Source of the DNA: an uncultured Flavobacteriales bacterium
Lineage (GTDB): Bacteria; Bacteroidota; Bacteroidia; Flavobacteriales_D; Sanyastnellaceae
Direction of reading: 5' to 3'
Length of the DNA: 44,641 nt
NCBI GenBank assembly: GCA_913051865.1
Contig: CAJXHE010000005.1
Span: 1 to 44,641, forward strand
Positions 7,467 through 38,296 of this stretch are shown here, one piece after another. Below the pieces are notes generated by a model. That model was not told the DNA's origin. It did not search any database and saw only the letters and a program-made list of their open reading frames with translations. Positions within the stretch are counted from its first letter, which is position 1. Every line of letters starts with the position of its first letter. The position numbers and the translations under genes are program-made.

Positions 7467-8828
7467 TCACGATACCAACTCCTCCGAAAATCCGATGTAA
7501 GTCGAAGGTGTAATCTGCCTTAACTCATCTTTAACGGCATCGGATACATTTAAAGTATCTATAAAAGCACGCATCGAAGATGCATTGATTTTTTCACCCG
7601 TTCTCGTAAGATCTTTTAACGCCTCATAAGGCTTGGGGTAGTTCTCACGACGCAGAATTGTTTGAATCCCTTCGGAGACTACAGCCCAGTTGTCTTCCAA
7701 CGCTGCTTCTAATGCAGGTGTATTCAGGACAAGCTTTCCCAACCCTTTTAACAATGACCGCAATGCGATAAGACCATGACTCATCGGAACACCAATATTC
7801 CGAAGCACTGTAGAGTCTGTTAAATCACGTTGCATTCTAGATATGGGCAGTTTTTCTGAGAAATGTCCCAAAACTGCGTTTGCCACCCCAAAGTTCCCTT
7901 CGCTGTTTTCGAAATCTATGGGATTCACCTTGTGAGGCATTGCAGAAGACCCTACCTCGCCCTCCACAATCTTTTGTTTGAAGTAATCCATCGATACATA
8001 TGTCCAAATATCTTTGTCCAAATCCATCATTACTGTATTCGCACGCCTCATCGCATCACACCATGCCGCGAGGTGATCGTAATGTTCAATCTGAGTTGTC
8101 ACCTTGCTCCGAAACAGTCCCAAATTACCTTCTACAAACTGCGTCCCAAAGGCAGGCCAATCTATGTCTGGATAGGCTACTTTGTGCGCGTTAAAACCTC
8201 CTGTTGCACCGCCAAATTTGGCTGCATAAACAGCATTTGAAATCGCATCACGTTGCACCCTAAGTCGGTTTTCAAAAACACTGATTTCCTTCCCCAAAGT
8301 CACAGGAGAAGCTGACTGACCATGTGTTCTTGCGAGCATAGGCACAGACTTCCAATCGTTTGCGAGACCACTTAATTTGGCGATAACCTCATCGATAATG
8401 GGCAAATAGACCTCTTCTGTAGCACGTTTAAGAGACAATGGAATGGCTGTGTTGTTAACGTCCTGCGAAGTCAATCCAAAATGTATGAACTCACTCCACT
8501 GGCTTACACCCAATTTTACCATCTCTTCCTTAATCCAATATTCAACCGCCTTAACATCATGGTTCGTCGTGGACTCAAGATCTTTAATCCTTTTCGCGTC
8601 TGCTTCTGAGAAATTGAGATACAACCCCCTCATGTCTTCAAATTTGTCCTTAGGAAAACCATCTAGCTGGGGAAGCGGTAGACACACCAAATCAATGAAG
8701 TACTTTACCTCCACCTCCACTCTATGCTTAATTAACCCAAACTCGGAAAGAAGGGATCCAAGAATATGAGTATGTCTGTGATATCGTCCGTCAACTGGAG
8801 AAATGGCATTCAAAGAAGAAAGCGGCAT
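7467..8828 (-). CDS. purB: Adenylosuccinate lyase
   Basis: This 453-residue cytosolic enzyme of the fumarase/aspartase superfamily removes fumarate from SAICAR and from adenylosuccinate, acting twice in purine synthesis. The superfamily signature loop appears as GSSAMPHKVNPIDFENSEG, and THGQSASPVTLGKE carries a conserved catalytic-site histidine. The N-terminus LNAISPVDGRY is typical of the PurB type found in E. coli. The length is normal. The ATG at 8828 lies 33 bases after a perfect TATCTTTG box (8869-8862), so unlike several neighbours this gene has a short 5' leader. It heads an operon with an ABC exporter and the DAHP synthase. Confidence 0.96.
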   Translation of the reverse strand: MPLSSLNAISPVDGRYHRHTHILGSLLSEFGLIKHRVEVEVKYFIDLVCLPLPQLDGFPKDKFEDMRGLYLNFSEADAKRIKDLESTTNHDVKAVEYWIKEEMVKLGVSQWSEFIHFGLTSQDVNNTAIPLSLKRATEEVYLPIIDEVIAKLSGLANDWKSVPMLARTHGQSASPVTLGKEISVFENRLRVQRDAISNAVYAAKFGGATGGFNAHKVAYPDIDWPAFGTQFVEGNLGLFRSKVTTQIEHYDHLAAWCDAMRRANTVMMDLDKDIWTYVSMDYFKQKIVEGEVGSSAMPHKVNPIDFENSEGNFGVANAVLGHFSEKLPISRMQRDLTDSTVLRNIGVPMSHGLIALRSLLKGLGKLVLNTPALEAALEDNWAVVSEGIQTILRRENYPKPYEALKDLTRTGEKINASSMRAFIDTLNVSDAVKDELRQITPSTYIGFSEELVS

Positions 8829-8861
8829 AGGGAAGTATTATTCAGTTCTTATATCAAAAGA

Positions 8862-8878
8862 CAAAGATACTACCTTAG
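8862..8878. promoter_or_regulatory. Back-to-back divergent -7 boxes for purB and the MBL gene
   Basis: On the minus strand 8869-8862 reads TATCTTTG, an exact -7 consensus pointing at purB. On the plus strand 8871-8878 reads TACCTTAG, a one-mismatch -7 box pointing at the MBL gene, whose ATG is 4 bases further on. One base separates the two boxes, so each promoter's upstream region lies in the other gene's leader or coding start. Two polymerases could not occupy both at once. Confidence 0.5.
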
Positions 8879-8882
8879 ACGC

Positions 8883-9740
8883 ATGCAACTTCATACTATT
8901 CACAACGGTAATTTTAAATTGGACGGGGGAGCCATGTTCGGCGTTGTGCCGAAAAAACTATGGTCAAGAACGAACCCGTCTGATGCAAATAATTTATGCC
9001 CTTGGGCGATGCGCTCATTGCTGATCGAAGACGGCGACAAATTAACATTAATCGATTGTGGATTAGGCGACAAACAAAGTGAGAAGTTCTTTAGTCATTA
9101 TCACCCGCATGGTGACAATTCATTGGACAAATCACTTTCAAAAGCTGGGTTTTCTCGTGACGACATTACTGACGTTTTCCTCACCCACTTGCATTTCGAT
9201 CATGTGGGTGGTGCAGTCGAATGGAATGACTCCCGCAACGGCTACCGTCCCGCTTTTAAAAATGCGACTTTCTGGAGCAATTCAAGGCACTGGAAATGGG
9301 CCACTGAACCAAATCAGCGCGAACGCGCAAGTTTTCTCTCTGAAAACATCAAACCCCTTCACGAATCTGGACAGCTCAAGTTTGTAGATGCATCTGATGA
9401 CGATCTGCGCATTAATACGGGACTCGGTTTTGATGCATTTGTCGTCAACGGTCACACTGACGCTCAAATGTGCCCCATCATTAAAGTAGGTGACACCACG
9501 GTTGTCTTCATGGCCGACCTTCTTCCCTCAGTAGGACATATCCCGATACCCTATGTCATGGGGTACGATACACGTCCATTGTTAACACTGGAAGAACGCA
9601 GTCGGATTTTTAACGAAGCAGCAAACAAAGGGTATCACCTTTTTTTAGAACACGATGCCGCGCATGAAGTTTGTACTTTAATTCAAACGGAAAAAGGGCC
9701 TCGACTCGATCGGGTGATGCAATTAAGTGAATTGGGGTAG
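8883..9740 (+). CDS. MBL-fold metallo-hydrolase (AHL-lactonase-like)
   Basis: This 285-residue protein carries the dinuclear zinc motif THLHFDHVGG (His102, His104, Asp106, His107) plus later GHTDAQ and MADLLPS elements. It resembles the MBL group that includes quorum-quenching lactonases of the AttM/AiiB type and other small hydrolases. Family membership is clear, but the substrate is not. The open frame reaches upstream to 8766, but that part overlaps purB antisense and is basic and non-conserved in look. The ATG at 8883 starts the natural MBL N-terminus and lies 4 bases after the box TACCTTAG. It has no signal peptide, so it should be cytosolic. It converges on pyrD with only 3 bases between the stop codons. 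Confidence 0.85.
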   Translation: MQLHTIHNGNFKLDGGAMFGVVPKKLWSRTNPSDANNLCPWAMRSLLIEDGDKLTLIDCGLGDKQSEKFFSHYHPHGDNSLDKSLSKAGFSRDDITDVFLTHLHFDHVGGAVEWNDSRNGYRPAFKNATFWSNSRHWKWATEPNQRERASFLSENIKPLHESGQLKFVDASDDDLRINTGLGFDAFVVNGHTDAQMCPIIKVGDTTVVFMADLLPSVGHIPIPYVMGYDTRPLLTLEERSRIFNEAANKGYHLFLEHDAAHEVCTLIQTEKGPRLDRVMQLSELG

Positions 9741-11964: not shown

Positions 11965-12984
11965 ATGAATTTGGATGAGATAAACGAACAGTTATTCAAC
12001 ATACCTAAGGTTGAGTTACATTGTCATTTGGAGCTTGCTTTCAGGCCCTCAACGATGATAGAATGGGCGATAGAGGACGGTTTGAAGATAAAATCCAAAG
12101 AAGATTTCGCAAGGGAATTTTTGATTTTAGAACCGATGGCAGATCTCCCAACGGTATTAAATAAATTTCTGCATACCAGAGATCGCTTGTCATCCCTAGA
12201 AAGAATTGAACGACTCGCATTTGAAGCGTGTGAAGACATGTATCTGAAGAGCAATGTCCGATTGCTTGAACTTCGATATGCACCAAGTTTTACACTAGAT
12301 ACATTTCCATACCTGGGCGCTGAGAATTTACACGGTGCAATCATGAAGGGCTGTGTGCGGGCAGAAAAGATGTACCCAATGGCTGTGGGACTTATTTGCT
12401 TGTTGCAAAGAATAAAATCCCACAAAGAGAATATGTACTGGTGTGACTTTGCAATTGCACATAAGGGAGAATTTATCGCCGTTGATCTTGCAGACAATGA
12501 AGTGGACTACCCTCCCAAACAGTTTGCGCCCATGTTTGACAAGGCCAAGGCAGCTGGACTAGGTATTACAATACATGCAGGTGAACCAGCTTTGCCTGGA
12601 TCCCCAAACAACATCCTGGCTTCTATCGATTATTTACATGCCGACAGAATAGGTCATGGGGTTCAAGCCATTCACGATGAAAAGGTAATCACAAGACTCG
12701 TGGATGAAAAAATACCTCTTGAAATGTGTCCTACCAGCAATTGGTTAACCCAAGCTGTACCTGACTTAGCGTCACATCCACTTAAACAATTAATGGACTT
12801 AGGTATTAAAACCACAGTCAATAGTGACGACCCAGGAGTGATGGGCATCACGCTCATGGATGAATACCACATCGCTCACAAGACATTAGGAATGAGTATT
12901 GATGAATTAAAGCGCTGTAATTCCTGGGCCGCTGAAGTTTCTTTTATACCTCAGAAAAAGAAGGACCATGTTTGGAAGAAATAA
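11965..12984 (+). CDS. Adenosine/adenine-deaminase-like purine deaminase
   Basis: This 339-residue protein belongs to the adenosine deaminase branch of metal-dependent hydrolases. The metal and catalytic residues are present: HCH (His19, His21), ITIHAGE (His204, Glu207), RIGHGV (His231) and VNSDDP (Asp288, Asp289). Substrate-pocket motifs differ from classical adenosine deaminase. HLDGA is HLELA here, and DLAGDE is DLADNE. The following YPPKQFAPMF is closer to adenine-deaminase-type members. It probably deaminates an adenine-containing compound, but adenosine itself is not certain. It has no signal peptide, so it is cytosolic. The next gene, a secreted protein, begins 17 bases before this stop, so the two are likely translated together. 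Confidence 0.8.
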   Translation: MNLDEINEQLFNIPKVELHCHLELAFRPSTMIEWAIEDGLKIKSKEDFAREFLILEPMADLPTVLNKFLHTRDRLSSLERIERLAFEACEDMYLKSNVRLLELRYAPSFTLDTFPYLGAENLHGAIMKGCVRAEKMYPMAVGLICLLQRIKSHKENMYWCDFAIAHKGEFIAVDLADNEVDYPPKQFAPMFDKAKAAGLGITIHAGEPALPGSPNNILASIDYLHADRIGHGVQAIHDEKVITRLVDEKIPLEMCPTSNWLTQAVPDLASHPLKQLMDLGIKTTVNSDDPGVMGITLMDEYHIAHKTLGMSIDELKRCNSWAAEVSFIPQKKKDHVWKK

Positions 12985-14635
12985 AAGATCAACGAACAAG
13001 ACGTTACTTATATGTGCTTCAGCCATATGCTTAATGGCATCTAATCTTCATTCCCAAACTCAGACTGTTGGCACATTTATAAACAACACCGAGGCCTTTG
13101 AAGGCTACAACTTACTGGCACCAAATAGCTCCGACTACACTTACTTGGTTGACAATTGTGGGCAAGTGATCAATCAATGGGAGAGTGAATACCGCACCGG
13201 CCTTTCTGCATACATACTTGAAGACGGTAGTTTGTTAAGAACTGCACAACTAAGCTCATCTGCAACCCCTCCTTTTTCAGGAGGCGGCACAGGAGGAAGG
13301 GTTGAAAGATTCAATTGGGAAGGTGAATTAATTTGGTCCATGAACTGGGCTGACACATTACAACACCAGCATCACGATATTGAATGGATGCCCAATGGAA
13401 ATCTGTTAATCTTAGGGTGGGAAAGACATTCCTACCAGGAAGCATTGGACATGGGGAAAACGCCCAATGCTTCCGAAAACGATGTGTGGTGTACTCAAAT
13501 AACAGAAATCCAACCTACTGGAAGTTTTGGAGGAGAAGTTGTTTGGCAGTGGTGCGCATGGCATCATTTGGTTCAAGACACCGATGCATCTCTTCCAAAT
13601 TATGCTGAAATTTCAAATGCGCCTAGACGTATAAACATCAATTACACAGCGAACAATGGTGCCAATGGTTTAAACCCTGACTGGATGCATTCAAATTCTA
13701 TCGCATACAATGAATCATTAGATCAAATCATCATAAGCGCAGGGAAATTTAACGAAATCTTCATTGTCGATCATTCTACAACAACAGAAGAAGCGGCGGG
13801 GCCTGCAGGTGATCTTTTGTGGAGATACGGAAACCCCATGGTCTACGATAGGGGCACAATTGAGGATCGCACACTGTTTTTTCAGCACAATGCACACTGG
13901 ATAGATGAAGACCACCCTGGAGGGGGCAATGTGTTGTTATATAACAACGGGCGCAACAGGCCAAGCATAGAGGCTTCATCTGTAGAAGAAATTACACTCC
14001 CTGAAATGGCAAACGGAACATATCCCATTGATGGTGCACTGCCATTTGGTCCTGCAACCTATTCCTGGAGATATCCTGAGACATTAGATGAGACGTTTTA
14101 TTCCTCGAATGTTTCTGGTGCAGAGAGACAACCCAATGGAAATACACTCATTGCAAATGGTCAAAACGGTATCGCATTTGAGGTTAATTCTGAAGAAGAA
14201 ATCGTGTTCAGATATGTCAATCCCATCACGGTTTTCGGGGCAACCACTCAAGGGAATGACCCTGGCAACAATGGCATATTCAGATTCCCCAGATATGCAT
14301 CCGATTACCTAGGATTTGTAGGGAAAGACATGACGCCTGGGGACGTCCTTGAAGCCAACAGCTGGCTGACAGGGTGTGACAGTGAAATCATTGCCGTGGA
14401 ACGTTCTTCTTGGGAAGCATACCCAAATCCCTTTAAAGATGTTATGGCAGTAGACTTCAAAGAAAAAGGAACATGGATTATTTACTCAACCAGCGGTGTA
14501 ATGCTAGAAATGGGAGAAGCGAAGTGTGGGGAAACTGTTAAAATAGGGGAGAAACTTAATGCTGGTTTTTACATTCTTAATTTCTTTCCTAAGTTTGCAA
14601 ACGGCTCTTTCACTAGAAGAATAGTGAAATTATAG
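12968..14635 (+). CDS. Secreted arylsulfotransferase-like beta-propeller with T9SS tail
   Basis: This 555-residue protein has a signal peptide (about 1-30, ending near LHSQ) and a beta-propeller of the arylsulfotransferase (ASST) type. The histidine-rich landmarks of that family are HHDIEWMPNGNLLI, WMHSNSIAYN, FQHNAHWID and ERQPNGNTLIANG. ASST enzymes transfer sulfate between phenols in the periplasm, but many Bacteroidota members are untested. The C-terminus has YPNPF followed by a beta-rich segment ending in RRIVKL, the pattern of a type A T9SS sorting domain, so it should be exported to the cell surface. The ATG at 12968 overlaps the previous gene by 17 bases and is needed for the signal peptide. 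The next gene is a paralogue. Confidence 0.8.
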   Translation: MFGRNKRSTNKTLLICASAICLMASNLHSQTQTVGTFINNTEAFEGYNLLAPNSSDYTYLVDNCGQVINQWESEYRTGLSAYILEDGSLLRTAQLSSSATPPFSGGGTGGRVERFNWEGELIWSMNWADTLQHQHHDIEWMPNGNLLILGWERHSYQEALDMGKTPNASENDVWCTQITEIQPTGSFGGEVVWQWCAWHHLVQDTDASLPNYAEISNAPRRININYTANNGANGLNPDWMHSNSIAYNESLDQIIISAGKFNEIFIVDHSTTTEEAAGPAGDLLWRYGNPMVYDRGTIEDRTLFFQHNAHWIDEDHPGGGNVLLYNNGRNRPSIEASSVEEITLPEMANGTYPIDGALPFGPATYSWRYPETLDETFYSSNVSGAERQPNGNTLIANGQNGIAFEVNSEEEIVFRYVNPITVFGATTQGNDPGNNGIFRFPRYASDYLGFVGKDMTPGDVLEANSWLTGCDSEIIAVERSSWEAYPNPFKDVMAVDFKEKGTWIIYSTSGVMLEMGEAKCGETVKIGEKLNAGFYILNFFPKFANGSFTRRIVKL

Positions 14636-14662
14636 AAAACACTATCAAATTATAGAATACAC
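14627..14662 (+). repeat. Tandem direct repeat between the two ASST-like genes
   Basis: AAATTATAGAAAACAC (14627-14642) is followed 20 bases later by AAATTATAGAATACAC (14647-14662), a 15/16 match. The first copy spans the stop codon of the upstream gene. It looks like a local slippage duplication. Confidence 0.6.
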
Positions 14663-14668
14663 AATCTC

Positions 14669-16585
14669 ATGAAACTGCAATACATAATTGGTCTCATCCT
14701 TCTAATGTTCATCAATTTCAGCATCGCTCAAGAAAACACAGTAGGCACAATCGTCTACGACGAGTCAGCAACAGATGGGGGATACAACTTAATTTATCCC
14801 CACAATCAACCTGATGCCTTCCTCTTAGATATGTGTGGAAATGTCGTTCATAAATGGGAGAATGCTGATTCTCTTAGACCGGCAAATGTCATTTACATTC
14901 TTGAAAATAGTGATGTGATGACAACTTATCGTCCAGCTAGTTTTCAAAATGATGCCATTTGGGCCGGTGGAGGTGGAGCTACAATTGAACGCAGAACATG
15001 GGACAACGAGCCTATTTGGTCATTCACTCGCAATGATGCCGAGTACCGATTGCATCACGACATTCAACCAATGGCAAATGGCAACGTTCTTGTCACTGCT
15101 TGGGAACAGCGAGACTCTCTAGAGTGCATCGAAGCTGGACGTAATCCTGAAAACTTAACAGGTGCAGGTATGTGGTCAGAAGTTGTTTGGGTAATCGCGC
15201 CAGGTGATGATGGATTGGGAGAAGTTGTCTGGGAATGGGCTGTTTGGGACCACTTGGTACAGGATTTTGACGCTACCAAGGAGAACTATGGGGTCATTGC
15301 AGATAACATCGATAAAATCGACATTAATTTTGGTTCTGTGTCAAATGCTGTTGCTGACTGGTTGCATATTAATGCCATTGATTTTGATGAGTTTAGTCAA
15401 CACATTATGTTGAGCGTTCCAACATTTAATGAGATATGGGTGGTTGATTACGGAAATACAACACCTGGTGAACTGAAATGGCGCTGGGGCAATCCCATGG
15501 CTTACGACAGAGGTGACAGTACAGACATGAAGTTGGGGTACCAACATCATACCCACTGGCTAGACCTTGCTTTAAGCACTAACAGTCCTGATTACGGAAA
15601 AGTAGGTGTTTTTAACAATAGAGTGCAAGGAGAAAGCGGTGAGTATAGCACTGTTCACACACTTTTGCCGATTTATGACGAATATGAGAATGAATACATC
15701 GTTAACAGTGAGACAGGAACATACCTCCCAACTGATTTCGAATGGACATTTGAATCACCTAATCCTAACACAATATACTCGAACATCGTTTCTTCTTTCC
15801 AACGTTTAGAAAATGGAAATAGTCTCATTTGTTCGGGAAGACCTGGGGACACTCGAGAGTACACTCAAGATGGAGATCTCGTTTGGCATTATAAAACACC
15901 CTTGTTAAATACGTCTGGCGTGAGTTCCCCTGTGAATCAAGGCACAGTCCTTTTGCCAACTCAGAATTTGACATTTAGAGCCTCCAGATATCCTGCAGAT
16001 TACCCAGGGTTAGCGGGTAAAGAACTTGTTTCTGGGTCGCCAATTGAGCTTAACCCTACTCCCCTACCACCTTGCTTGGTGTGTGACCTTGAGCTTTCGC
16101 TAGACAGCATTTCATTTGACACCCTAGGGGCCACGGTCCAAGTTTCAGCTGAAGGATCATTTGATATCAATCTGATCGAATGGATGTCGCTTACGGATAG
16201 CAGCGTACTACCTATGAATTCTGAGCTTATTTTCACTACAATGGAGTCAGGAGATTATATGATAACGGTCACTGATGAATTGGGATGTATGGATTCACTT
16301 GTTGTTTCTGTCATTATTGATGAGGTGAACAATCCGAATCAACTTGCTTTTGGCGTTTATCCCAACCCGACGAATGGGGCGTTAAATGTGACGCTTTCAC
16401 AACATAGCCACAATGCAAGCATAGACATCTATGACATGCAGGGAAGATTGGTTTTCAATCGTGAGAGATTAACGCACTCAGGAAATATTGCGCTCGACAT
16501 ACAAGGCTTAGAGAATGGAACATATGTGCTGGTGATACGCACAAACGAAGGTTCTGGAAATTCAAGAATAGTTATACAGAATTAA
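14669..16585 (+). CDS. Second secreted arylsulfotransferase-like protein with T9SS tail
   Basis: This 638-residue paralogue of the preceding gene starts with a signal peptide (about 1-20, ending near SIAQ). It shares the same landmarks: LHHDIQPMANGNVLV, WLHINAIDFDEF, YQHHTHWLD, RLENGNSLICSG and YPADYPGLAGKE. An extra segment (about 465-550) resembles a small Ig-like or SprB-like repeat with the Bacteroidota-type motif ELGCMDSLVV. The T9SS sorting domain starts at VYPNPTNGALNV (about 560) and ends RIVIQN. It follows the first copy after 33 bases and is followed by a strong terminator, so the pair forms the tail of the deaminase operon. The sulfate-transfer function is inferred only from the family. 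Confidence 0.8.
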   Translation: MKLQYIIGLILLMFINFSIAQENTVGTIVYDESATDGGYNLIYPHNQPDAFLLDMCGNVVHKWENADSLRPANVIYILENSDVMTTYRPASFQNDAIWAGGGGATIERRTWDNEPIWSFTRNDAEYRLHHDIQPMANGNVLVTAWEQRDSLECIEAGRNPENLTGAGMWSEVVWVIAPGDDGLGEVVWEWAVWDHLVQDFDATKENYGVIADNIDKIDINFGSVSNAVADWLHINAIDFDEFSQHIMLSVPTFNEIWVVDYGNTTPGELKWRWGNPMAYDRGDSTDMKLGYQHHTHWLDLALSTNSPDYGKVGVFNNRVQGESGEYSTVHTLLPIYDEYENEYIVNSETGTYLPTDFEWTFESPNPNTIYSNIVSSFQRLENGNSLICSGRPGDTREYTQDGDLVWHYKTPLLNTSGVSSPVNQGTVLLPTQNLTFRASRYPADYPGLAGKELVSGSPIELNPTPLPPCLVCDLELSLDSISFDTLGATVQVSAEGSFDINLIEWMSLTDSSVLPMNSELIFTTMESGDYMITVTDELGCMDSLVVSVIIDEVNNPNQLAFGVYPNPTNGALNVTLSQHSHNASIDIYDMQGRLVFNRERLTHSGNIALDIQGLENGTYVLVIRTNEGSGNSRIVIQN

Positions 16586-16612: not shown

Positions 16613-16645
16613 AAGCCCGACGAACGTCAACTCGTCGGGCTTTTT
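16613..16645 (+). terminator. Rho-independent terminator after the ASST-like pair
   Basis: AAGCCCGACGA (16613-16623) pairs perfectly with TCGTCGGGCTT (16632-16642), followed by T residues to 16645. The paaG-like promoter box begins only 7 bases later. Confidence 0.9.
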
Positions 16646-16651
16646 CATGCT

Positions 16652-21064: not shown

Positions 21065-23371
21065 ATGAAAATATCTTTACGATCAATTGGTATTGCAAAC
21101 ACCCTCCTTATTGTAAGCCTCATATCCGTTGCTGATATTTCAGCGCAGTGGTCCCATGATTTCGAACATGGCGTCATCCCTGTTGTTATAGATGGAGATA
21201 CGCTTCAAAATCCATGGGTGGGGGGATTAACTGCACCTCAATGGTCGCCGATAGACTTTGATTTTGATGAAGATGAAGACCTTTTCGCATTTGACAGAGA
21301 TGGGTCAAGACTCCTCGCATTTGAAAGAACAGACAGTGGATGGATCTATCGACCTGAGTGGGTAAAAGGATGGCCTGAAATTGTTGACTGGTGCCTACTT
21401 CGTGACTATGACTGTGATGGCCGTCCGGATATTTTCACAAGCTACCAGAACGGGATTTACGTGTATCGAAATTTGACAGAAGACCCCAACAATCCTCAAT
21501 TCGAACCCGTGGCGACTCCTCTCATGGCTTCTTACGATTTGGGACAAGGAGCAGACACGCTACCGGTCGTTTGCTTGGGCATAGATCTCCCCGCCATTCT
21601 CGACCACGATGGAGATGGTGATCTTGACATCATATCCTTCACAGAAAACTCAAGCACACTGTATCGTTTTTCTGGAAATACAGAGTGTGGATTAGAATTG
21701 ACATGCACAAATAGATGTTATGGCATGCTCGCTGAAGCCTCTGAAAACAATGCGCTTTTTATTGGAGATGATTTTGACTGTGCCTTCAACGTCGCAGAAC
21801 CCAGGCACGAAATGCATGCCGGAGGATCAATTACAAGTTTACAATTGGATAATTCAGGTCCTCTTGACCTTATCATCGGGGATGTTACGTTTCCGCTTTC
21901 CTTGGCTATACTCATGGAAGATGCCGCCGATGGGCAGGACTCCGCCATCTTTATAGACCAATCTTTCCCCCTACTCACGGGCGGAACAGAAGCGCTAAGT
22001 TGCCAACGATTCCCCGCCTCATACCATATTGACATTGACGAAGATGGGATACGGGATCTGCTTTTCAGCCCTAACACTTACTTAGAAACCGACGATGATG
22101 CCAGTGTTCATTATTTAAAAAATACGGGAAACGAGTCTTCTCCTTCATGGGAATATATCCAAAATGACTTCATCCAAGAAGGCCTGATCGATCTCGGTCG
22201 AGGTTCATATCCCGTTTTAATTGATCTCGATTCAGACGGTCTTCTTGACCTGGTCCTAGCAAATAAAGAGAAATACCAAGGTGTCGACAACACCCCTACA
22301 TCCATATTGCTTTTTAAAAATACAGGATCACTTTCATCTCCCGTATTTAGTCATCAATGGCAAGATACTGTCGATATATCTACATTCGGCATTGAGAGTG
22401 TTTTCCCAGCATTGGGTGACCTCGACGGAGATGGTGATGTCGACTTAATCGTGGGAGATGAATTGGGGAGATTGCACCGATTTGAAAACAATGCAGGAGA
22501 AGGAAACTGGCCTGAATTTGTGGTTTCCGAACTGTCAATTTCAGACAGTGAACAAGAAGTTATTGACGTCGGGCAATTCGCAGCACCTCAGCTTATTGAC
22601 ATCGACGCTGACGGGCTTCTCGACCTGGTGGTAGGTGAGAAAAACGGGACATTAACGCTCTTCCTCAACTGTGGGGACAACCTCAACCATTCGTGGTGTA
22701 GATTAGTAAGCGAGGCCTTTGGAGAAAATTGGGGCGACATACATGTCACAAATACCCTAGGAATCAATGGCTATAGTACACCTGCTCTATATAGAGACCC
22801 TTTAGGCATCCATGTCTTAGTAGCAAACGAAACGGGTACTGTTCAGTCGTTTGGTTTTGTAAACAGTGATTATGAACTCGCGCTTGAAGAAGTGAACTCC
22901 GAAGTGATTGCAAATGGCACAGGAGGCTCTGGATTCAGAGCAGGTGCTGCTTTCGCCGATCTCAACGGAGACTCAATTGTTGACTGTCTCCTCGGAATTC
23001 AAAATGGTGGCGTGAAATGCTATATCTCTTCTGACGATACCACCACCGATGTCACCGAGATTAACACAAATGATGCAGCCCCGAGTCTGAATGTGTTTCC
23101 TAATCCGGGAAAAGACATCCTGAATTGGGAATTTACCTCATCGATAAACCTATTGACATCGCGATATCATGCAGCAATTGAAGTCCGAAATGAACTTGGT
23201 CAAACAATTTTTCAATCTCCAACACTTTCTCCCAACGCGGGGATATTGAGGGGGTCGATCTCAACCAACAATTGGCCAGGTGGCGTTTATATTTTAGCGC
23301 TAGTGGAACTTTCAGGCACGAAAAAAGGAGGCCTGTTGGGACCTCCTCTTCGTTGGGTTAAAATTGACTAG
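21065..23371 (+). CDS. Secreted FG-GAP/VCBS repeat protein with T9SS tail
   Basis: This 768-residue protein has a signal peptide (about 1-28, ending DISAQ). It carries at least seven calcium-binding FG-GAP/VCBS motifs of the D-x-D-x-D-G type spread over about 55-650: DYDCDG, DHDGDG, DIDEDG, DLDSDG, DLDGDG, DIDADG and DLNGDS. Such repeats build integrin-like beta-propellers used for adhesion or as carriers of other activities. The C-terminus has VFPNPGKDILNWEF and a beta-rich segment, the T9SS type A sorting domain, so it is probably displayed on the cell surface. No enzymatic domain is visible. The last codons contain a hairpin that on the other strand works as the mdh terminator. The 248 bases upstream of it (20817-21064) hold no gene that I can see. 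Confidence 0.82.
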   Translation: MKISLRSIGIANTLLIVSLISVADISAQWSHDFEHGVIPVVIDGDTLQNPWVGGLTAPQWSPIDFDFDEDEDLFAFDRDGSRLLAFERTDSGWIYRPEWVKGWPEIVDWCLLRDYDCDGRPDIFTSYQNGIYVYRNLTEDPNNPQFEPVATPLMASYDLGQGADTLPVVCLGIDLPAILDHDGDGDLDIISFTENSSTLYRFSGNTECGLELTCTNRCYGMLAEASENNALFIGDDFDCAFNVAEPRHEMHAGGSITSLQLDNSGPLDLIIGDVTFPLSLAILMEDAADGQDSAIFIDQSFPLLTGGTEALSCQRFPASYHIDIDEDGIRDLLFSPNTYLETDDDASVHYLKNTGNESSPSWEYIQNDFIQEGLIDLGRGSYPVLIDLDSDGLLDLVLANKEKYQGVDNTPTSILLFKNTGSLSSPVFSHQWQDTVDISTFGIESVFPALGDLDGDGDVDLIVGDELGRLHRFENNAGEGNWPEFVVSELSISDSEQEVIDVGQFAAPQLIDIDADGLLDLVVGEKNGTLTLFLNCGDNLNHSWCRLVSEAFGENWGDIHVTNTLGINGYSTPALYRDPLGIHVLVANETGTVQSFGFVNSDYELALEEVNSEVIANGTGGSGFRAGAAFADLNGDSIVDCLLGIQNGGVKCYISSDDTTTDVTEINTNDAAPSLNVFPNPGKDILNWEFTSSINLLTSRYHAAIEVRNELGQTIFQSPTLSPNAGILRGSISTNNWPGGVYILALVELSGTKKGGLLGPPLRWVKID
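23321..23347 (-). terminator. Terminator of mdh, inside the end of the convergent coding sequence
   Basis: On the minus strand AGGAGGTC (23347-23340) pairs with GGCCTCCT (23333-23326) with one G-U pair and a 6-base loop, followed by a T-run (23326-23321). It lies about 43 bases after the mdh stop, within the codons for the C-terminus of the FG-GAP protein. Confidence 0.75.
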
Positions 23372-30127: not shown

Positions 30128-33100
30128 CTACGCGTCAGCAATCGCCTTCGTAGATTCTTCAACAACATCATCATTTTCAATCCCTTTTAAAGCTGCATCA
30201 AATTCATCTTGAGATCCAACTTTTAATTTTTGGAAATCTCTAGAACCAGTACCTGCAGGAATAAGGTGACCTACAATTACATTCTCCTTAAGACCTAATA
30301 AGTGGTCTTGCTTTCCGCTAACAGCTGCTTCATTCAAGACTTTCGTTGTCTCTTGGAAAGATGCCGCAGATATAAAGGATTTTGTCTGCAATGATGCACG
30401 TGTGATTCCTTGTAAAAGTGGACGAGAAGTCGCTGGGATAGCATCTCTCGCTTCAACTAGTGCAAGGTCTCTTCGCCTTAAAGATCCGTTCTCATCACGA
30501 AGACGACGCGCAGTAATCATTTGGCCTTCAGAAAGCTCTTCACTGTCACCTGCATTAGAAATCACGACCATACCGAATATTCTGTTGTTCTCAACCAAGA
30601 AATCAGCTTTTTCAGCGTTCTGCTTTTCTAAGAACTTCGTATCACCAGAATCTTCAATCACGACCTTCTTCATCATTTGACGAACAATCACCTCAAAGTG
30701 TTTGTCATTAATCTTCACACCCTGAAGACGGTAAACATCTTGAATCTCGTTCACAATGTATTCTTGAACAGCAGTAGGGCCTTTGATGTTAAGGATATCC
30801 TTCGGTGTAATCGCACCGTCAGAAAGAGGCATACCAGCTCTAACAAAATCGTTGTCTTGAACTAAAATGTGCTTAGACAGAGGGACCATGTACTTGTACT
30901 TATCTCCAACACGAGACTCAACAATTACCTCGCGATTACCTCTCTTAATCTTACCATAAGAAACAATTCCATCCACCTCAGAAACAACAGCAGGGTTAGA
31001 TGGGTTACGTGCTTCAAATAGCTCAGTGACTCTTGGAAGACCTCCAGTAATATCACCAGACTTACCAGCAACACGTGGAATCTTACACAGAATCTGACCA
31101 AGTGTTGAACTACTGCCATTCTTCACCATAATGTGGGCACCCACGGGCAAAGAATAAGTACGTAAAGCTTCGCCTTTCTTGTCTACAATTAAAATTGCAG
31201 GGTTCTTCTTTTTGTCTTTTGTTTCAGTAATAACAACCTCACGGAAGCCAGTTTGCTCGTCAAGTTCCTCACGGTAGGTTAAACCTTCCTCAATATTTTC
31301 AAACTTGACAGTACCCAACGCTTCACAGACAATTGCACTGTTGTATGGGTCCCACTTACATACAGAGTCGTTCTTCTTTATTTTATCTCCTGACTTTACA
31401 AAAAGCAAAGATCCATATGGTAAAATAGTTGTAGAAAAAGCAACGCCTGTTTTCGGGTCAACAACTTTGAATTCACTCGAACGAGATACAATGACAGTTT
31501 CCTTTTCGCCGTTCTCATTTTTACGATCGACAGTACGTAAATCTTCAATCTCAGCGACACCATCAAACTTCGTGCGCAACTCACTCTCATCAGAGATTTT
31601 TGACGCTGTACCACCTACGTGGAACGTTCGAAGTGTCAGCTGTGTACCTGGCTCACCGATAGACTGAGCTGCAATAACACCCACTGCAACGCCTTTCTGA
31701 ACCATTCTGGCATCAGATAGATTTCGGCCGTAACATTTGGCGCAAATACCTCTCACAGACTCACAAGTAAGTACAGAACGGACTTCAACTTCATCAACAC
31801 CAGCAGCTTCAATCGTTCGAGATATTTCCGGAGTGATTTCCTCTCCTTCCTTTGCAAGAACTTCACCTGTTTCAGGATGATAAACATCAATCGCGGGAAC
31901 ACGCCCATCTATTCTGTCAGAAATACCCTCAACAATTTCATCGTTTTTACGAAGTGGACTCACCATGACGCCGCGTAACGTACCGCAATCCTCTTCTGTA
32001 ACAATGACATCTTGAGCCACATCTACGAGTCGACGTGTCAAGTAACCAGCATCCGCTGTTTTCAAAGCTGTATCAGCGAGACCTTTACGCGCACCGTGAG
32101 TAGAAATAAAGTACTCTAGGATCGAAAGACCTTCTTTAAAGTTAGAGAGAATTGGATTCTCAATAATATCTTGACCACCGGAGGTAGAAGATTTCTGTGG
32201 TTTCGCCATAAGACCACGCATACCAGATAGCTGTCTAATTTGCTCTTTAGATCCACGTGCACCAGAGTGCATCATCATGTAAATAGAATTAAACCCTTGC
32301 TTGTCTGTCTCAAGCCTATCCATAAGGATATTTGTGAGACGAGAATTTGTGTGTGTCCAAATATCAATGATCTGGTTGTAACGCTCGTTGTTAGTGATGA
32401 GACCCATATTGTAGTTCTCCATAACTTCAGCAACTTCAGACGTCGCTTTAGTGACAAGCTTTTCTTTCTCCGGCGGGATAATTACATCATTCAAGTTGAA
32501 TGAGAGGCCACCTTTAAAAGCCATGTAGAAACCGAGATGTTTAATGTCATCTAGAAACTCAGCTGTTCTTGCAACACCTACTGTTTCCAAAACCTTCGCA
32601 ATAATATCACGAAGTGATTTCTTTGTAAGAAGCTCATTGATATAACCTGCTTCTAATGGAACATGCTCATTAAATAGAACACGACCACAGGTTGTTTCGA
32701 TGATTGAAGATTCACCGTTTATATCAATAAAACGCATTTTAATAGCTGCGTGTAGATCAAGCTTGCCTTCTTGGTGCATAATACTCACCTCCTGAGGAGA
32801 GTAACACACAGTACCTTCACCTTTAACAGGCCATTCTGTTGTGCTCTTACGTTCTTTTGTAATGTAGTATAAACCCAAGACCATATCCTGAGAAGGAACC
32901 GTTATCGGGGCACCATTGGCAGGGTTTAAAATGTTATGGGACGCAAGCATTAACAACTGTGCTTCTAAAACTGCAGCATGACCTAGTGGTAAGTGTACCG
33001 CCATTTGGTCACCGTCAAAGTCAGCGTTAAACGCTGTACAAGCAAGTGGATGAAGTTGTAGCGCCTTACCCTCAATCAATTTAGGTTGGAATGCCTGAAT

Positions 33101-34453
33101 ACCAAGTCTGTGAAGTGTTGGCGCACGATTTAGAAGCACTGGATGCCCCTTCATTACATTTTCAAGAATATCCCAAACAATCGCTTCTTTTGCATCAACA
33201 ATCTTTTTTGCTGACTTGACGGTCTTGACGATTCCACGCTCAAGCATCTTACGAATAATGAACGGCTTGTAAAGCTCGGCTGCCATATGCTTAGGCATTC
33301 CACATTCGTGCATTTTCAGCTTAGGACCTACTACGATAACCGAACGTGCAGAATAGTCAACACGCTTACCGAGAAGATTTTGACGGAAACGACCCTGCTT
33401 ACCTTTTAAACTGTCACTTAAAGATTTTAAAGGCCTGTTGCTTTCTGTCTTAACCGCACTTGATTTACGACTGTTATCGAAAAGGCTATCTACAGCCTCC
33501 TGAAGCATACGCTTCTCGTTTCTTAGAATAACCTCCGGAGCCTTAATCTCAACAAGTCTCTTTAGACGGTTATTGCGAATAATGACACGGCGGTATAAAT
33601 CATTTAAATCAGACGTTGCAAATCGACCACCATCTAGTGGAACAAGAGGACGTAGCTCCGGGGGAATGATCGGAACAACTTTGATAATCATCCATTCAGG
33701 ACGGTTCTCAATTCTCTTTTGTGAACCACGCATGTTCTCAACAACTTGAAGACGCTTTAACGCTTCACTCTTTCGTTGTTGAGAGGTTTCAGTATCTGCT
33801 GAATGACGAAGCTTAAATGAAAGCTCATCCAAGTCAAGATTTGCCAAAAGATCATGTACTGCCTCAGCACCCATCTTTGCGACAAATTTGTTTGGATCTT
33901 TGTCGTCTAAGTATTGATTTTCTTTCGGAAGGGTATCTTGAATATCGAAGTACTCATCTTCAGTAAGGAAATCATTGATTTGCAAATCTTCCCCTTCAGC
34001 ATTTTTTGCAATACCAGGGTTAATAACTGCGTAGCGTTCGTAGTAAATAATCTGGTCTAACTTTTTTGAAGGCAGACCTAGAAGATAGCCGATTTTATTT
34101 GGCAAACTTTTAAAATACCAAATATGAGCCACAGGAACAACAAGTGAAATGTGTCCCATTCTCTCACGACGAACTTTTTTCTCTGTCACCTCAACACCAC
34201 AACGGTCACAAACGATTCCCTTGTAACGGATACGCTTGTACTTACCGCAATGACATTCAAAGTCTTTTACAGGTCCAAATATTCTTTCACAAAACAAACC
34301 ATCACGTTCCGGCTTATAGGTACGATAATTGATGGTTTCTGGCTTAAGCACTTCACCATGTGACTGCTCAAGTATTGTCTCTGGCGATGATAACGAAATT
34401 GTTATTGTCGAAAAATCGCCCGAGGACTGTTGGGGGGTCTTTTGTTGGAACAT
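30128..34453 (-). CDS. rpoC: DNA-directed RNA polymerase beta' subunit
   Basis: This protein of about 1441 residues forms the catalytic jaw of RNA polymerase. The N-terminal zinc ribbon [20 protein letters not shown], the catalytic loop NADFDGDQM with the three Asp residues that hold the active magnesium, and the second zinc site [13 protein letters not shown] are present. The frame is also open with a TTG at 34465. The ATG at 34453 (MFQQKTPQQ) is preferred because it is ATG and gives a family-like N-terminus before the conserved [23 protein letters not shown]. It follows rpoB after 21 bases. The length is typical for Bacteroidota. Confidence 0.98.
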
Positions 34454-34474
34454 ATCAGTTTTCAATGAGGGGTA

Positions 34475-37400
34475 TCAATCTAGTGAAATACTTAGTCCGA
34501 GGCCTTTCAGCTCGTGAAGAAGTACATTAAACGACTCTGGAATTCCAGGCTTAGGCATGAGGTCACCTTTAACGATGGCTTCGTATGCTTTTGCACGTCC
34601 TATAACATCATCCGACTTTACAGTCAAAATCTCTTGTAGGATATTCGCAGCACCAAATGCCTCAAGTGCCCACACTTCCATCTCACCAAAACGCTGACCA
34701 CCAAACTGAGCTTTTCCGCCCAATGGTTGTTGTGTAATCAGTGAGTAAGGTCCGATTGAACGCGCATGCATCTTGTCATCAACCATATGACTTAGCTTAA
34801 TCATATAAATGACACCAACTGTTGCAGGTTGATCGAAACGTTCACCAGTTCCTCCGTCATACAGGTGAGTCACACCACAATCAGGAACACCTGCTTTTTC
34901 TGTCAATTCAGTAATCTCTTCTAAGCTAGCCCCATCAAAGATTGGCGAAGCAAACTTCATCCCTAAGTTTTGGCCTGCCCAACCGAGTACCGTTTCGTAA
35001 ATCTGCCCCAGGTTCATTCTAGACGGTACACCAAGTGGGTTTAAAACAATGTCCACTGGCGTTCCATCTTTAAGGAACGGCATATCCTCCTGACGTACAA
35101 TTCTTGCAACAATTCCTTTGTTACCGTGACGTCCCGCCATCTTGTCACCTACTTTCAATTTACGCTTTTTAGCCACGTAAACTTTTGCCAGCTTGACAAT
35201 TCCATTTGGAAGTTCATCACCTACAGTAACCTGGAATTTTTTGCGCTTATAAGCACCCAGAAGATCGTTGTACTTCATTGTGTAGTTGTGTACCACACGA
35301 TTTATTAGATCACTAACTTCACTATCTCTTACCCAAGCTTCCGAGTTTATGATGAGGAAGTCCAAGCTCAATAGAATTTTTTGAGTGAACTTTATTCCTT
35401 TCTTAACCTGCTCTTCCTTGTAGTAATTGAAAACACCTTGGCTCACCTTTCCAGCAACGAGCTTCATAAGCTTGTCAACTAAGATTTTCTTAAGAGATGC
35501 AGCTTCCTTATCGAAATCAATATCGATTGATTCAATAATTGCCTTATCTGCAGCTTTGGCTTTTCTATCCTTTACTGCACGGCTAAATAACTTCTTGTCA
35601 ATCACGACACCTTTACTTGAAGGTGGCATTTTTAATGAAGCATCCTTTACATCTCCAGCCTTGTCACCGAAAATAGCTCTGAGTAGCTTCTCTTCAGGGC
35701 TTGGATCTGACTCACCTTTAGGTGTAATCTTACCAATGAGGATGTCACCACCACTCACATTTGCACCGATTCGAATTAATCCGTTTTCGTCGAGGTTCGC
35801 TGTAGCTTCCTCACTGACGTTCGGAATATCATTTGTCAACTCCTCAATTCCACGCTTGGTATCTCTTACTTCGAGTGTATACGAATCGACGTGTAAAGAG
35901 GTAAATACATCTTCTCTTACAACACGTTCTGAGATTACAATCGCATCCTCAAAGTTGTATCCCTGCCAAGGCATAAAGGCAACCTTCATGTTTTGGCCCA
36001 ACGCAAGCTCTCCATTGTCGGTACTGTATCCTTCTACAAGAATCTGACCTTTTTCAACACGATCGCCTTTCGATACGATGGGACGAAGGTTCATGCATGT
36101 ACCCTGGTTCGTCCGAGAAAATTTAACGAGGTTATACAACTTCAAATCATCATCAAATGAAACAAGCAAATCGCTCTCATCCATTTTGTGACGAATATGA
36201 ATAACGTCTGAATCAACATACTCAACAACACCGTCCGACTCAGCACGCATAAGAATTCTTGAATCTCTTGCAACAGCTGATTCAACTCCTGTACCAACGA
36301 TAGGCGAGTCAGGAATCATGAGTGGAACAGCCTGACGCATCATGTTAGATCCCATCAAAGCACGGTTCGCATCATCATGCTCCAAGAATGGAATTAATGA
36401 CGCCGCAATAGAGGCTATCTGATTAGGAGCCACATCCATGTACTCCAATTCATTTGCTTGTACAAGTGGATAATCAGCTTGTAACCTTGACTTGATTAAT
36501 GGATCAAGGAAATTTCCATCATTGTCTATTTTCGCATTTGCCTGCGCAATTAAAGACATTGCTTCATCCTCTGCTGATAAGTAAATAACATCCTCAGCTT
36601 TGGTGGCTGCTTTACCATCAATGACTTTACGATATGGTGTTTCAATAAATCCAAGCCTGTTCACTTTGGCATACACACACAATGAACTAATAAGTCCAAT
36701 ATTCGGTCCCTCTGGAGTCTCAATAGTACAAAGACGTCCATAGTGCGTGTAGTGTACATCACGAACCTCAAAACCAGCACGTTCACGAGAAAGTCCACCA
36801 GGCCCTAGGGCTGATATACGTCGTTTGTGTGTCACCTCACTTAGAGGATTGGTTTGGTCCATAAACTGTGACAACTGATTTGTTCCAAAGAAACTATTAA
36901 TCACAGAACTTAACGTCTTCGCATTAATCAGATCCGTCGGCGTAAACACTTCGTTATCACGAACGTTCATACGCTCACGAATTGTTCGTGCCATACGCGC
37001 TAGACCGACACCAAATTGAGAGTATAGCTGCTCACCTACAGTACGAATACGTCTGTTACTTAAGTGATCAATATCGTCAACATCTGCATTAGAGTTAACC
37101 AAATCAATTAAGTACTTTATAATAAGCAATATATCATCCTTCGTGAGTGTTCTGCTCACGACGTCGTCATCCAATCCCAATTTCCTGTTGATACGGAAAC
37201 GACCGACTTCACCCAAATCATAACGCATTTCGGAGAAGAAAAGTTTATCGATTACGCCTCGAGCTGTGTCCAAATCTGGCGGCTCAGCATTTCGAAGTTG
37301 ACGATAGATATATTCTACAGCTTCCTTCTCAGAGTTTGAGCTATCCTTCTGTAGCGTATTGTAAATAATCGCGTAATCAGCTTGATTTATACTCTCCTTG

Positions 37401-38296
37401 TGAAGAATAATAGATTTCGTGCCACTTTCCATGATAAGCGCAACGTGCTCTTTTTCAAGAATCGTTTCTCTGTCAAGGATGACCTCATTTCTCTCAATCG
37501 AAACAACTTCTCCTGTATCCTCATCCACAAAATCCTCAACCCATACTTTTAAGACACGGGCAGCTAGCTTTCTACCTACTGCACGTTTCAGACCTGCCTT
37601 ACTCACTTTTACCTCGTCAGCAAGGTCAAAAATATCTAAAATATCTCGGTCAGTTTCGTATCCAATACTACGTAACAATGTTGTTACTGGAAGCTTCTTC
37701 TTTCGATCGATGTAGGCGTACATAACACCATTAATGTCTGTCGCAAATTCAATCCAAGATCCTTTAAAAGGAATAATTCTTGCAGAATAAAGTTTGGTGC
37801 CATTTGCGTGACGACTTTGGCCAAAAAACACCCCAGGTGACCGGTGGAGTTGATTGACTATGACACGTTCTGCGCCATTTACGACAAATGAGCCTTGAGG
37901 AGTCATATAGGGGATTGTACCCAAATAAACATCTTGAACAATGGTCTCAAAATCCTCATGTTCAGGGTCAGTACAGTAAAGCTTTAGTTTGGCTTTGAGC
38001 GGGACACTGTGAGTAAGACCACGCTCAATACATTCAGTAATGCAATAGCGGGGAGGATCAATAAAGTAATCTAAAAATTCAAGTACGAATTGATTCCTTG
38101 TATCTGTGATAGGGAAGTTTTCGCTGAATACTTTAAATAATCCTTCTGATTCACGATTTTCAGGTTTTGTTTCAAGTTGAAAAAACTCCTGAAAAGAGCG
38201 TAGTTGGATGTCAAGAAAATCCGGATGATCTAGTGGAAGAGCCACTGATGCAAAGTTTTTCCGGGTAGCGACTGGGGTGGTATTGACCAAAGACAT
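34475..38296 (-). CDS. rpoB: DNA-directed RNA polymerase beta subunit
   Basis: This 1273-residue subunit forms the other half of the polymerase active cleft. The rifampicin-binding cluster reads [30 protein letters not shown]. It keeps the Asp, His, Arg and Ser positions (E. coli 516, 526, 529 and 531) whose change causes resistance, so a sensitive type is expected; the residue at E. coli 518 is Thr. The C-terminal [10 protein letters not shown] and the ending [10 protein letters not shown] are typical. The ATG at 38296 is 144 bases after rplL, with a hairpin in between. No insertion or frameshift is seen. Confidence 0.98.

Follow-up and report, generated by a model that had tools for sequence, protein, structure and literature searches.

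Tandem ASST-superfamily proteins from an uncultured Flavobacteriales bacterium: sulfotransferase histidines retained at a site that lacks Arg374

The closest described relatives of the genes considered here are two sulfotransferases that work independently of 3′-phosphoadenosine-5′-phosphosulfate (PAPS). AssT of Escherichia coli CFT073 (PDB codes 3elq, 3ets and 3ett) is a periplasmic arylsulfate sulfotransferase (ASST) formed by an N-terminal β-sandwich and a propeller; its active site comprises H252, H356, N358, R374, H436 and T501, with H436 transiently sulfated, and according to the review PMC13426309 every published member conserves the active-site residues that have been identified. Cpz4, the caprazamycin sulfotransferase of Streptomyces (9kf4 and 9kf6), acts preferentially on a sugar hydroxyl in its substrate, the sulfate being supplied by a pyrone carrier that has been sulfated by a PAPS enzyme (PMC13426309 and PMC6731281). 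Here we analyse a tandem gene pair, ASSTa and ASSTb, in a 44,641-nucleotide stretch (the window; contig CAJXHE010000005.1 of assembly GCA_913051865.1, positions 1–44,641 of the forward strand) from an uncultured member of the Flavobacteriales, family Sanyastnellaceae, whose genome assembly spans 1.97 Mb in 119 contigs and is 82% complete. ASSTa (12968–14635, plus strand, 555 residues) has a signal peptide, a propeller and a weak type IX secretion system (T9SS) tail; ASSTb (14669–16585, plus strand, 638 residues) has a signal peptide, a propeller, a β-domain insert and a strong T9SS tail. Both open reading frames (ORFs) begin with ATG and are intact, and their products are 35% identical. Profile and fold place both proteins in the ASST superfamily. 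Our preferred reading, drawn by analogy and given a probability of about 0.58, is that the two proteins are exported, cell-surface, PAPS-independent sulfotransferases whose fold is nearest to that of Cpz4.

Family membership, predicted fold and export signals

Both proteins score far above chance against PF05935 (78.9 bits for ASSTa and 65.2 for ASSTb; cut-off 24.2) and also pass PF14269 (31.9 and 40.9 bits; cut-off 27), bearing out an earlier note on this DNA that had recognized two tandem arylsulfotransferase-like genes. Predicted models (mean pLDDT 86.3 and 85.4) were compared with solved structures using VIA-align, for which Cpz4 is the top match in both cases (9kf6; Z 32.2, rmsd 3.0 over 328 aligned residues for ASSTa; Z 32.4, rmsd 3.1 over 335 for ASSTb). 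E. coli AssT follows (3ets; Z 25.5 and 25.2), then the best structure from outside the superfamily (Z 21.1 and 21.4), and Foldseek ranks Cpz4 and AssT in the same order for ASSTa. The match to AssT begins at its residue 118, whereas the aligned part is preceded by no more than about 32 residues in ASSTa and 23 in ASSTb; the N-terminal β-sandwich is therefore absent from both proteins. Ratios of non-synonymous to synonymous substitution (dN/dS) against three near relatives are 0.16–0.20 for ASSTa and 0.09–0.19 for ASSTb, which indicates purifying selection on both genes; near relatives include uncultured Flavobacteriales and Crocinitomicaceae assemblies.

Each protein opens with a signal-peptide-like stretch, visible in the sequence and as the first helix of the model. 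ASSTb closes with a T9SS type A sorting tail (16355–16582, plus strand; PF18962 58.3 bits, cut-off 27; TIGR04183 50 bits) that ranks top of the 62 PF18962-type matches in the genome. The corresponding tail of ASSTa (14420–14632, plus strand) reaches 17.9–20.9 bits with PF18962; the family profile matches solved T9SS tails (E down to 2.5e-9), and the T9SS tail model is matched by 33 of 40 aligned relatives at E ≤ 0.01. The earlier note had assigned such tails to both proteins, which holds for ASSTb and stays below threshold for ASSTa. Because the genome encodes SprA (SprA_N match of 535.8 bits on contig 2, SprA being the sole part of the T9SS machinery searched for), the T9SS is the likely export route of both. 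In the Bacteroidota genomes searched, T9SS-type tails are frequently met on ASST-family proteins, a kind already known by profile.

The extra insert that the earlier note had placed in the second protein appears in the ASSTb model as an all-β domain of about 75 residues, Ig-like or SprB-like in look, ahead of the tail (16088–16312, plus strand; residues about 474–548), with no Pfam match above any cut-off. In three other loci (L062, L063 and L064), the downstream ASST gene carries a far longer pre-tail insert with ‘ACNYD’-type stretches.

Active-site residues, subtypes and the putative reaction

The histidine motifs named in the earlier note are present, as HHD (135–137), W239-x-H241-x-N243 and Q306-H307-x2-H310-W311 in ASSTa and as HHD (129–131), H233-x-N235, Q292-H293 and W297 in ASSTb. 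An alignment of 40 relatives shows no variation in HHD, H-x-N, QH or W311; the second histidine of QH-x2-HW is variable. AssT numbering was set by aligning a classic AssT of Bacteroidota to 3elq, where chain positions equal the published numbers, and the residues of ASSTa and ASSTb were mapped through this alignment and a profile alignment to Cpz4. H252, H356, N358 and H436 of AssT align with H136, H241, N243 and H307 of ASSTa and with H130, H233, N235 and H293 of ASSTb, so that the comparison with AssT proposed in the earlier note places all four catalytic His/Asn positions in both proteins. The position of R374 is occupied by G259 in ASSTa and P251 in ASSTb. T501 was dropped as a marker, being variable even within the classic AssT set.

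Wider sampling separates the behaviour of these positions. Sets of 86 and 151 rows were assembled, leaving out rows that scored under 300 bits with the A1 profile and loci that occurred more than once (L097–L100 in both sets, also L151 and L170 in the larger). The equivalents of H356, N358 and H436, together with those of R286 and E263, are invariant (151/151), and the H252 column holds His in 148 rows, Tyr in two and an unreadable residue in one. The 374 column, by contrast, holds Arg or Lys in 52 rows, Pro in 59, His in 19, Ala in 9, Ser in 6, Gly in 3, Tyr in 2 and Asn in 1. A single position has therefore changed while its neighbours have not. The arginine at R286 (ASSTa) or R272 (ASSTb) is present in every row and has an Arg at the aligned place in Cpz4; thus one arginine near the site is retained in both proteins.

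This pattern sets the pair apart from described enzymes. ASSTa and ASSTb share with Cpz4 the H-x-N and QH motifs, the arginine of the W-R strand and, presumably, the PAPS-independent type; Cpz4 keeps the Arg374 equivalent that they lack, and serves antibiotic making. The T9SS is not known as a Streptomyces system. With AssT they share the propeller and the four aligned residues, and differ in lacking R374 and the N-terminal domain, in bearing T9SS-type tails and probably in not sharing its periplasmic placement. Lacking these features, they can be filed as neither. Classic AssT-like proteins of other Bacteroidota (L072–L091) have PF05935 and the same four residues in common with the pair, but keep Arg or Lys at 374 (20/20 in their own profile). 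Two further PF05935 genes lie elsewhere in the source genome, on contigs 9 and 17. The paralogue on contig 9 (L071) is 46% identical to ASSTa and has all the histidines, but keeps Arg374. This gene (8111–9667, minus strand, within the contig segment 12000–30000) encodes a dockerin-like C terminus of repeated Asp-rich motifs with Cys and has no T9SS tail; several other genomes of the genus contain matches of similar length.

Arg-bearing and Arg-lacking proteins fall into distinct subtypes. In a tree of the 86-row set, built without the loop that holds position 374 (a quick tree with long branches), the downstream genes of the family form a clade with Pro at 374 in all 25 rows (support 99). The upstream genes form a separate clade, with Arg or Lys at 374 outside the genus of ASSTa and, within that genus, Gly, Ala or Pro followed by Lys (14/14). 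Pro-bearing rows tend to carry arginines at three ASSTb positions, 127 (53/57), 318 (49/57) and 391 (44/57, plus 5 Lys), where Arg374-bearing rows mostly have other residues; this comparison uses 57 Pro rows, as two Pro-bearing upstream genes of the genus (L056 and L057) were moved to the genus set. These extra arginines (R127, R318 and R391) mark the main Pro clade and are also found in some rows with His at 374. Since the Pro rows outside that clade do not all have them, we treat them as a clade signature, with compensation for the lost arginine as a candidate role.

Several points weigh against a sulfotransferase assignment. As aligned, Arg374, a listed active-site residue of AssT, is gone from both proteins, and the Pro-bearing L102, L160, L213 and L214 are without R318, leaving repeated independent compensation unsupported. 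Propellers with functions other than sulfate transfer also score Z 20–21 against the models, hence the predicted fold alone would not prove the reaction. The tail of ASSTa is under the Pfam cut-off, and the source genome is 82% complete.

The absent arginine could instead mean that the two are non-catalytic propellers, secreted ASST-fold proteins that merely bind sulfated or phenolic surface ligands, as the earlier note had also entertained. The β-domain insert and T9SS tail of ASSTb would suit such a role, as these occur on many surface proteins. A dead enzyme, however, would be expected to lose its histidines too, and the H356, N358 and H436 equivalents are kept in every one of the 151 rows, over a deep tree and whether or not a clade bears the arginine. 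That one residue is lost while the histidines stay intact favours changed specificity over dead propellers, and we consider the non-catalytic explanation unlikely. The same histidine pocket might alternatively run a different reaction, such as hydrolytic desulfation or the transfer of a different group. The sulfate-holding arginine of AssT is absent, an extra desulfating enzyme could be useful in a genome with no PF00884 sulfatase over the cut-off, and unrelated propeller chemistry is known (CylK, which is in the Foldseek list). Against this, the solved structures nearest to the models all belong to sulfotransferases, and the pocket residues other than Arg374 are those of sulfotransferases, which leaves a different reaction doubtful.

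As sulfotransferases, ASSTa and ASSTb probably work like AssT and Cpz4, to judge by these analogues. A donor aryl sulfate would bind within the propeller; its sulfo group would pass to H307 (ASSTa) or H293 (ASSTb), aided by H136/H130, H241/H233 and N243/N235, and a hydroxyl acceptor would then receive it, a sulfo-histidine ping-pong route that we infer from AssT and Cpz4. Loss of Arg374 would re-shape donor or acceptor binding, or the hold on the sulfate or leaving group; the invariant R286/R272, and R127, R318 and R391 in the downstream clade, probably help to hold the sulfate. The two proteins most likely have different pockets. By analogy, sugar or glycan hydroxyls are more likely acceptors than free phenols; the algal phenolic or polysaccharide substrates suggested in the earlier note are a guess. 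A surface enzyme would presumably have no access to PAPS and would therefore need an aryl sulfate, external or exported by the cell. The genome has one match to a PAPS-type sulfotransferase family and one to the APS-kinase (adenosine-5′-phosphosulfate kinase) family, making a home-made aryl sulfate donor possible. A sulfatase partner was sought in the genome, where PF00884 matches only below its cut-off.

Tandem pairs of the two subtypes

Tandem pairs were fetched on the coordinates of two neighbouring matches, before their residues were known, with at most three matches per genome scored; at least 52 were read. Arg upstream and Pro downstream is the arrangement in 34 of the 52, comprising 33 from other genera of the family (33/33 of those fetched there) and one from an uncultured Lewinella (L103). 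Within the genus, neither partner has Arg374 (8/8 read). In six genomes of another Bacteroidota family (L075, L076, L078, L081, L083 and L085), a classic Arg-bearing AssT is directly followed by a subfamily member with Ser at 374. The remaining four pairs are Pro–Arg (L160), Arg–Val (L161), His–His (L149) and His–Tyr (L200). Outside the 52 stand L199 (Pro then His, with an interrupted frame) and L070 (with a partial upstream gene). The Arg–Pro pairs are largely one inherited arrangement, and their number does not equal a number of independent events; two or three further events are suggested by the mixed pairs found in other lineages. Searches confined to one open library turned up no paper on the tandem pair, PMC11625862 being among those listed for PF05935, and no description of paired subtypes or of selective Arg374 loss in the papers searched.

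Among the 14 genomes of the genus, the source included, nine have the pair (one of them, G004, with a partial upstream gene on that contig), three have the upstream gene only and two reach a contig end. In the three with a lone ASSTa (L059, L060 and L061), the gene is directly followed by that for enoyl-CoA hydratase (ECH), and DUF551 is undetected as well as ASSTb.

The tandem may be an inherited duplication only, with independent partners and an adjacency of no functional meaning, an explanation compatible with the sulfotransferase reaction and to which we give a little under an even chance. It would account for the conserved order of the block of genes around the pair, from purB to an FG-GAP repeat gene, for the single origin to which most pairs trace and for the three of 14 genus genomes in which ASSTa sits beside ECH without ASSTb. 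It fits less well with two subtypes that stay side by side in one order, each with a fixed signature of its own, in several genera as well as in Lewinella (L103), or with the separate tandems elsewhere that join an Arg-bearing to a non-Arg copy (the six classic-Arg-then-Ser pairs, L160 and L161). The tandem could alternatively form a surface sulfate relay or hetero-oligomer, in which the upstream protein would load sulfate from aryl sulfates and the downstream protein, through its re-charged pocket, would hand it on to a bulky glycan of the surface or the environment; the odds are well against so specific an arrangement, and we put it forward as speculation.

Gene neighbourhood and the adjoining deaminase

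The pair sits in a block ordered purB, pyrD, orf193, smpB, deaminase, ASSTa, ASSTb, ECH, DUF551, rsmE, pckA, fasciclin and FG-GAP, and this order, made up with housekeeping genes, is kept across several genera of the family. The FG-GAP repeat protein (window positions 21065–23371) has a weak T9SS tail of its own and belongs to the conserved block beside the sulfotransferases. Three genomes of one genus have an extra ASST-like gene between DUF551 and rsmE, encoded on the opposite strand (L062 14148–16400, L063 3259–5334 and L065 13540–15717). Farther along the window, two very long adjoining ORFs (1,445 and 1,273 residues) occupy 30128–34465 and 34475–38296 on the minus strand.

A likely intrinsic terminator follows ASSTb (16613–16647, plus strand), with an 11-bp stem, an 8-base loop and then a U run; spotted by eye and then folded, it gives −19.8 kcal/mol (z −5.5). 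The three nearest relatives share this stem. At the same position, L062 and L065, two loci from a different genus, have other hairpins, while in three further members of the source genus there is just a short gap without a hairpin. A promoter scan, among whose plus-strand sites the hairpin does not figure, found promoter-like sites no commoner than in shuffles (14 versus 13.4). The deaminase gene, ASSTa and ASSTb are probably one transcription unit closed by this terminator.

The gene immediately upstream (11965–12984 including the stop codon, plus strand, 339 codons) encodes an adenosine-deaminase family protein that passes the TIGR01430 equivalog cut-off (237.2 bits; cut-off 216.55) and also matches PF00962. 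ORF coordinates agree with the earlier note that ASSTa starts 17 bases upstream of its end at 12984, stop included. Of 36 loci examined, 20, spanning five genera, have a deaminase gene immediately upstream of an ASST gene, with junctions that mostly overlap or are a few bases apart, although gene starts are not certain everywhere. Among the family genomes tested, a close orthologue (E below 1e-100) was found in 8 of 12 that have ASST proteins and in none of 12 that do not (12 of the 17 same-family genomes that lack a sulfotransferase match).

Both this direct adjacency and the 8/12 versus 0/12 distribution could be taken to mean that deaminase and sulfotransferases are a functional unit, for example one handling sulfated or released nucleosides. 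Their products, however, would be in different compartments, and the association is confounded by shared ancestry. The genes also come apart: G023 and G042 have the deaminase on a separate contig with the sulfotransferases still within the block, and it was not detected in G028, G045, G038 and G040; apart from G023 and G042, two genomes hold the ASST pair without a detectable deaminase. We consider a functional unit very improbable. We reject a dedicated deaminase–sulfotransferase system on account of the whole-block synteny and the separable genes, and we regard the deaminase as a neighbour in transcription, not a partner in the reaction. Of the earlier note, the short junction stands and is conserved in five genera, and the ASST fold, the histidine positions and the T9SS as likely export route stand with it; the coupling to the deaminase, taken as a dedicated partnership, finds no support, and the loss of Arg374 was not visible to that reader.

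The reading of ASSTa and ASSTb as sulfotransferases points to secreted enzymes that may sulfate surface glycans without PAPS. A surface relay, if true, would show that sulfo-histidine chemistry can do without Arg374. The relatives assembled here amount to a sizeable natural collection that combines loss of the arginine with fixed histidines and has Arg-bearing and Arg-lacking copies adjoining one another, and this set offers a direct route to the role of the arginine.

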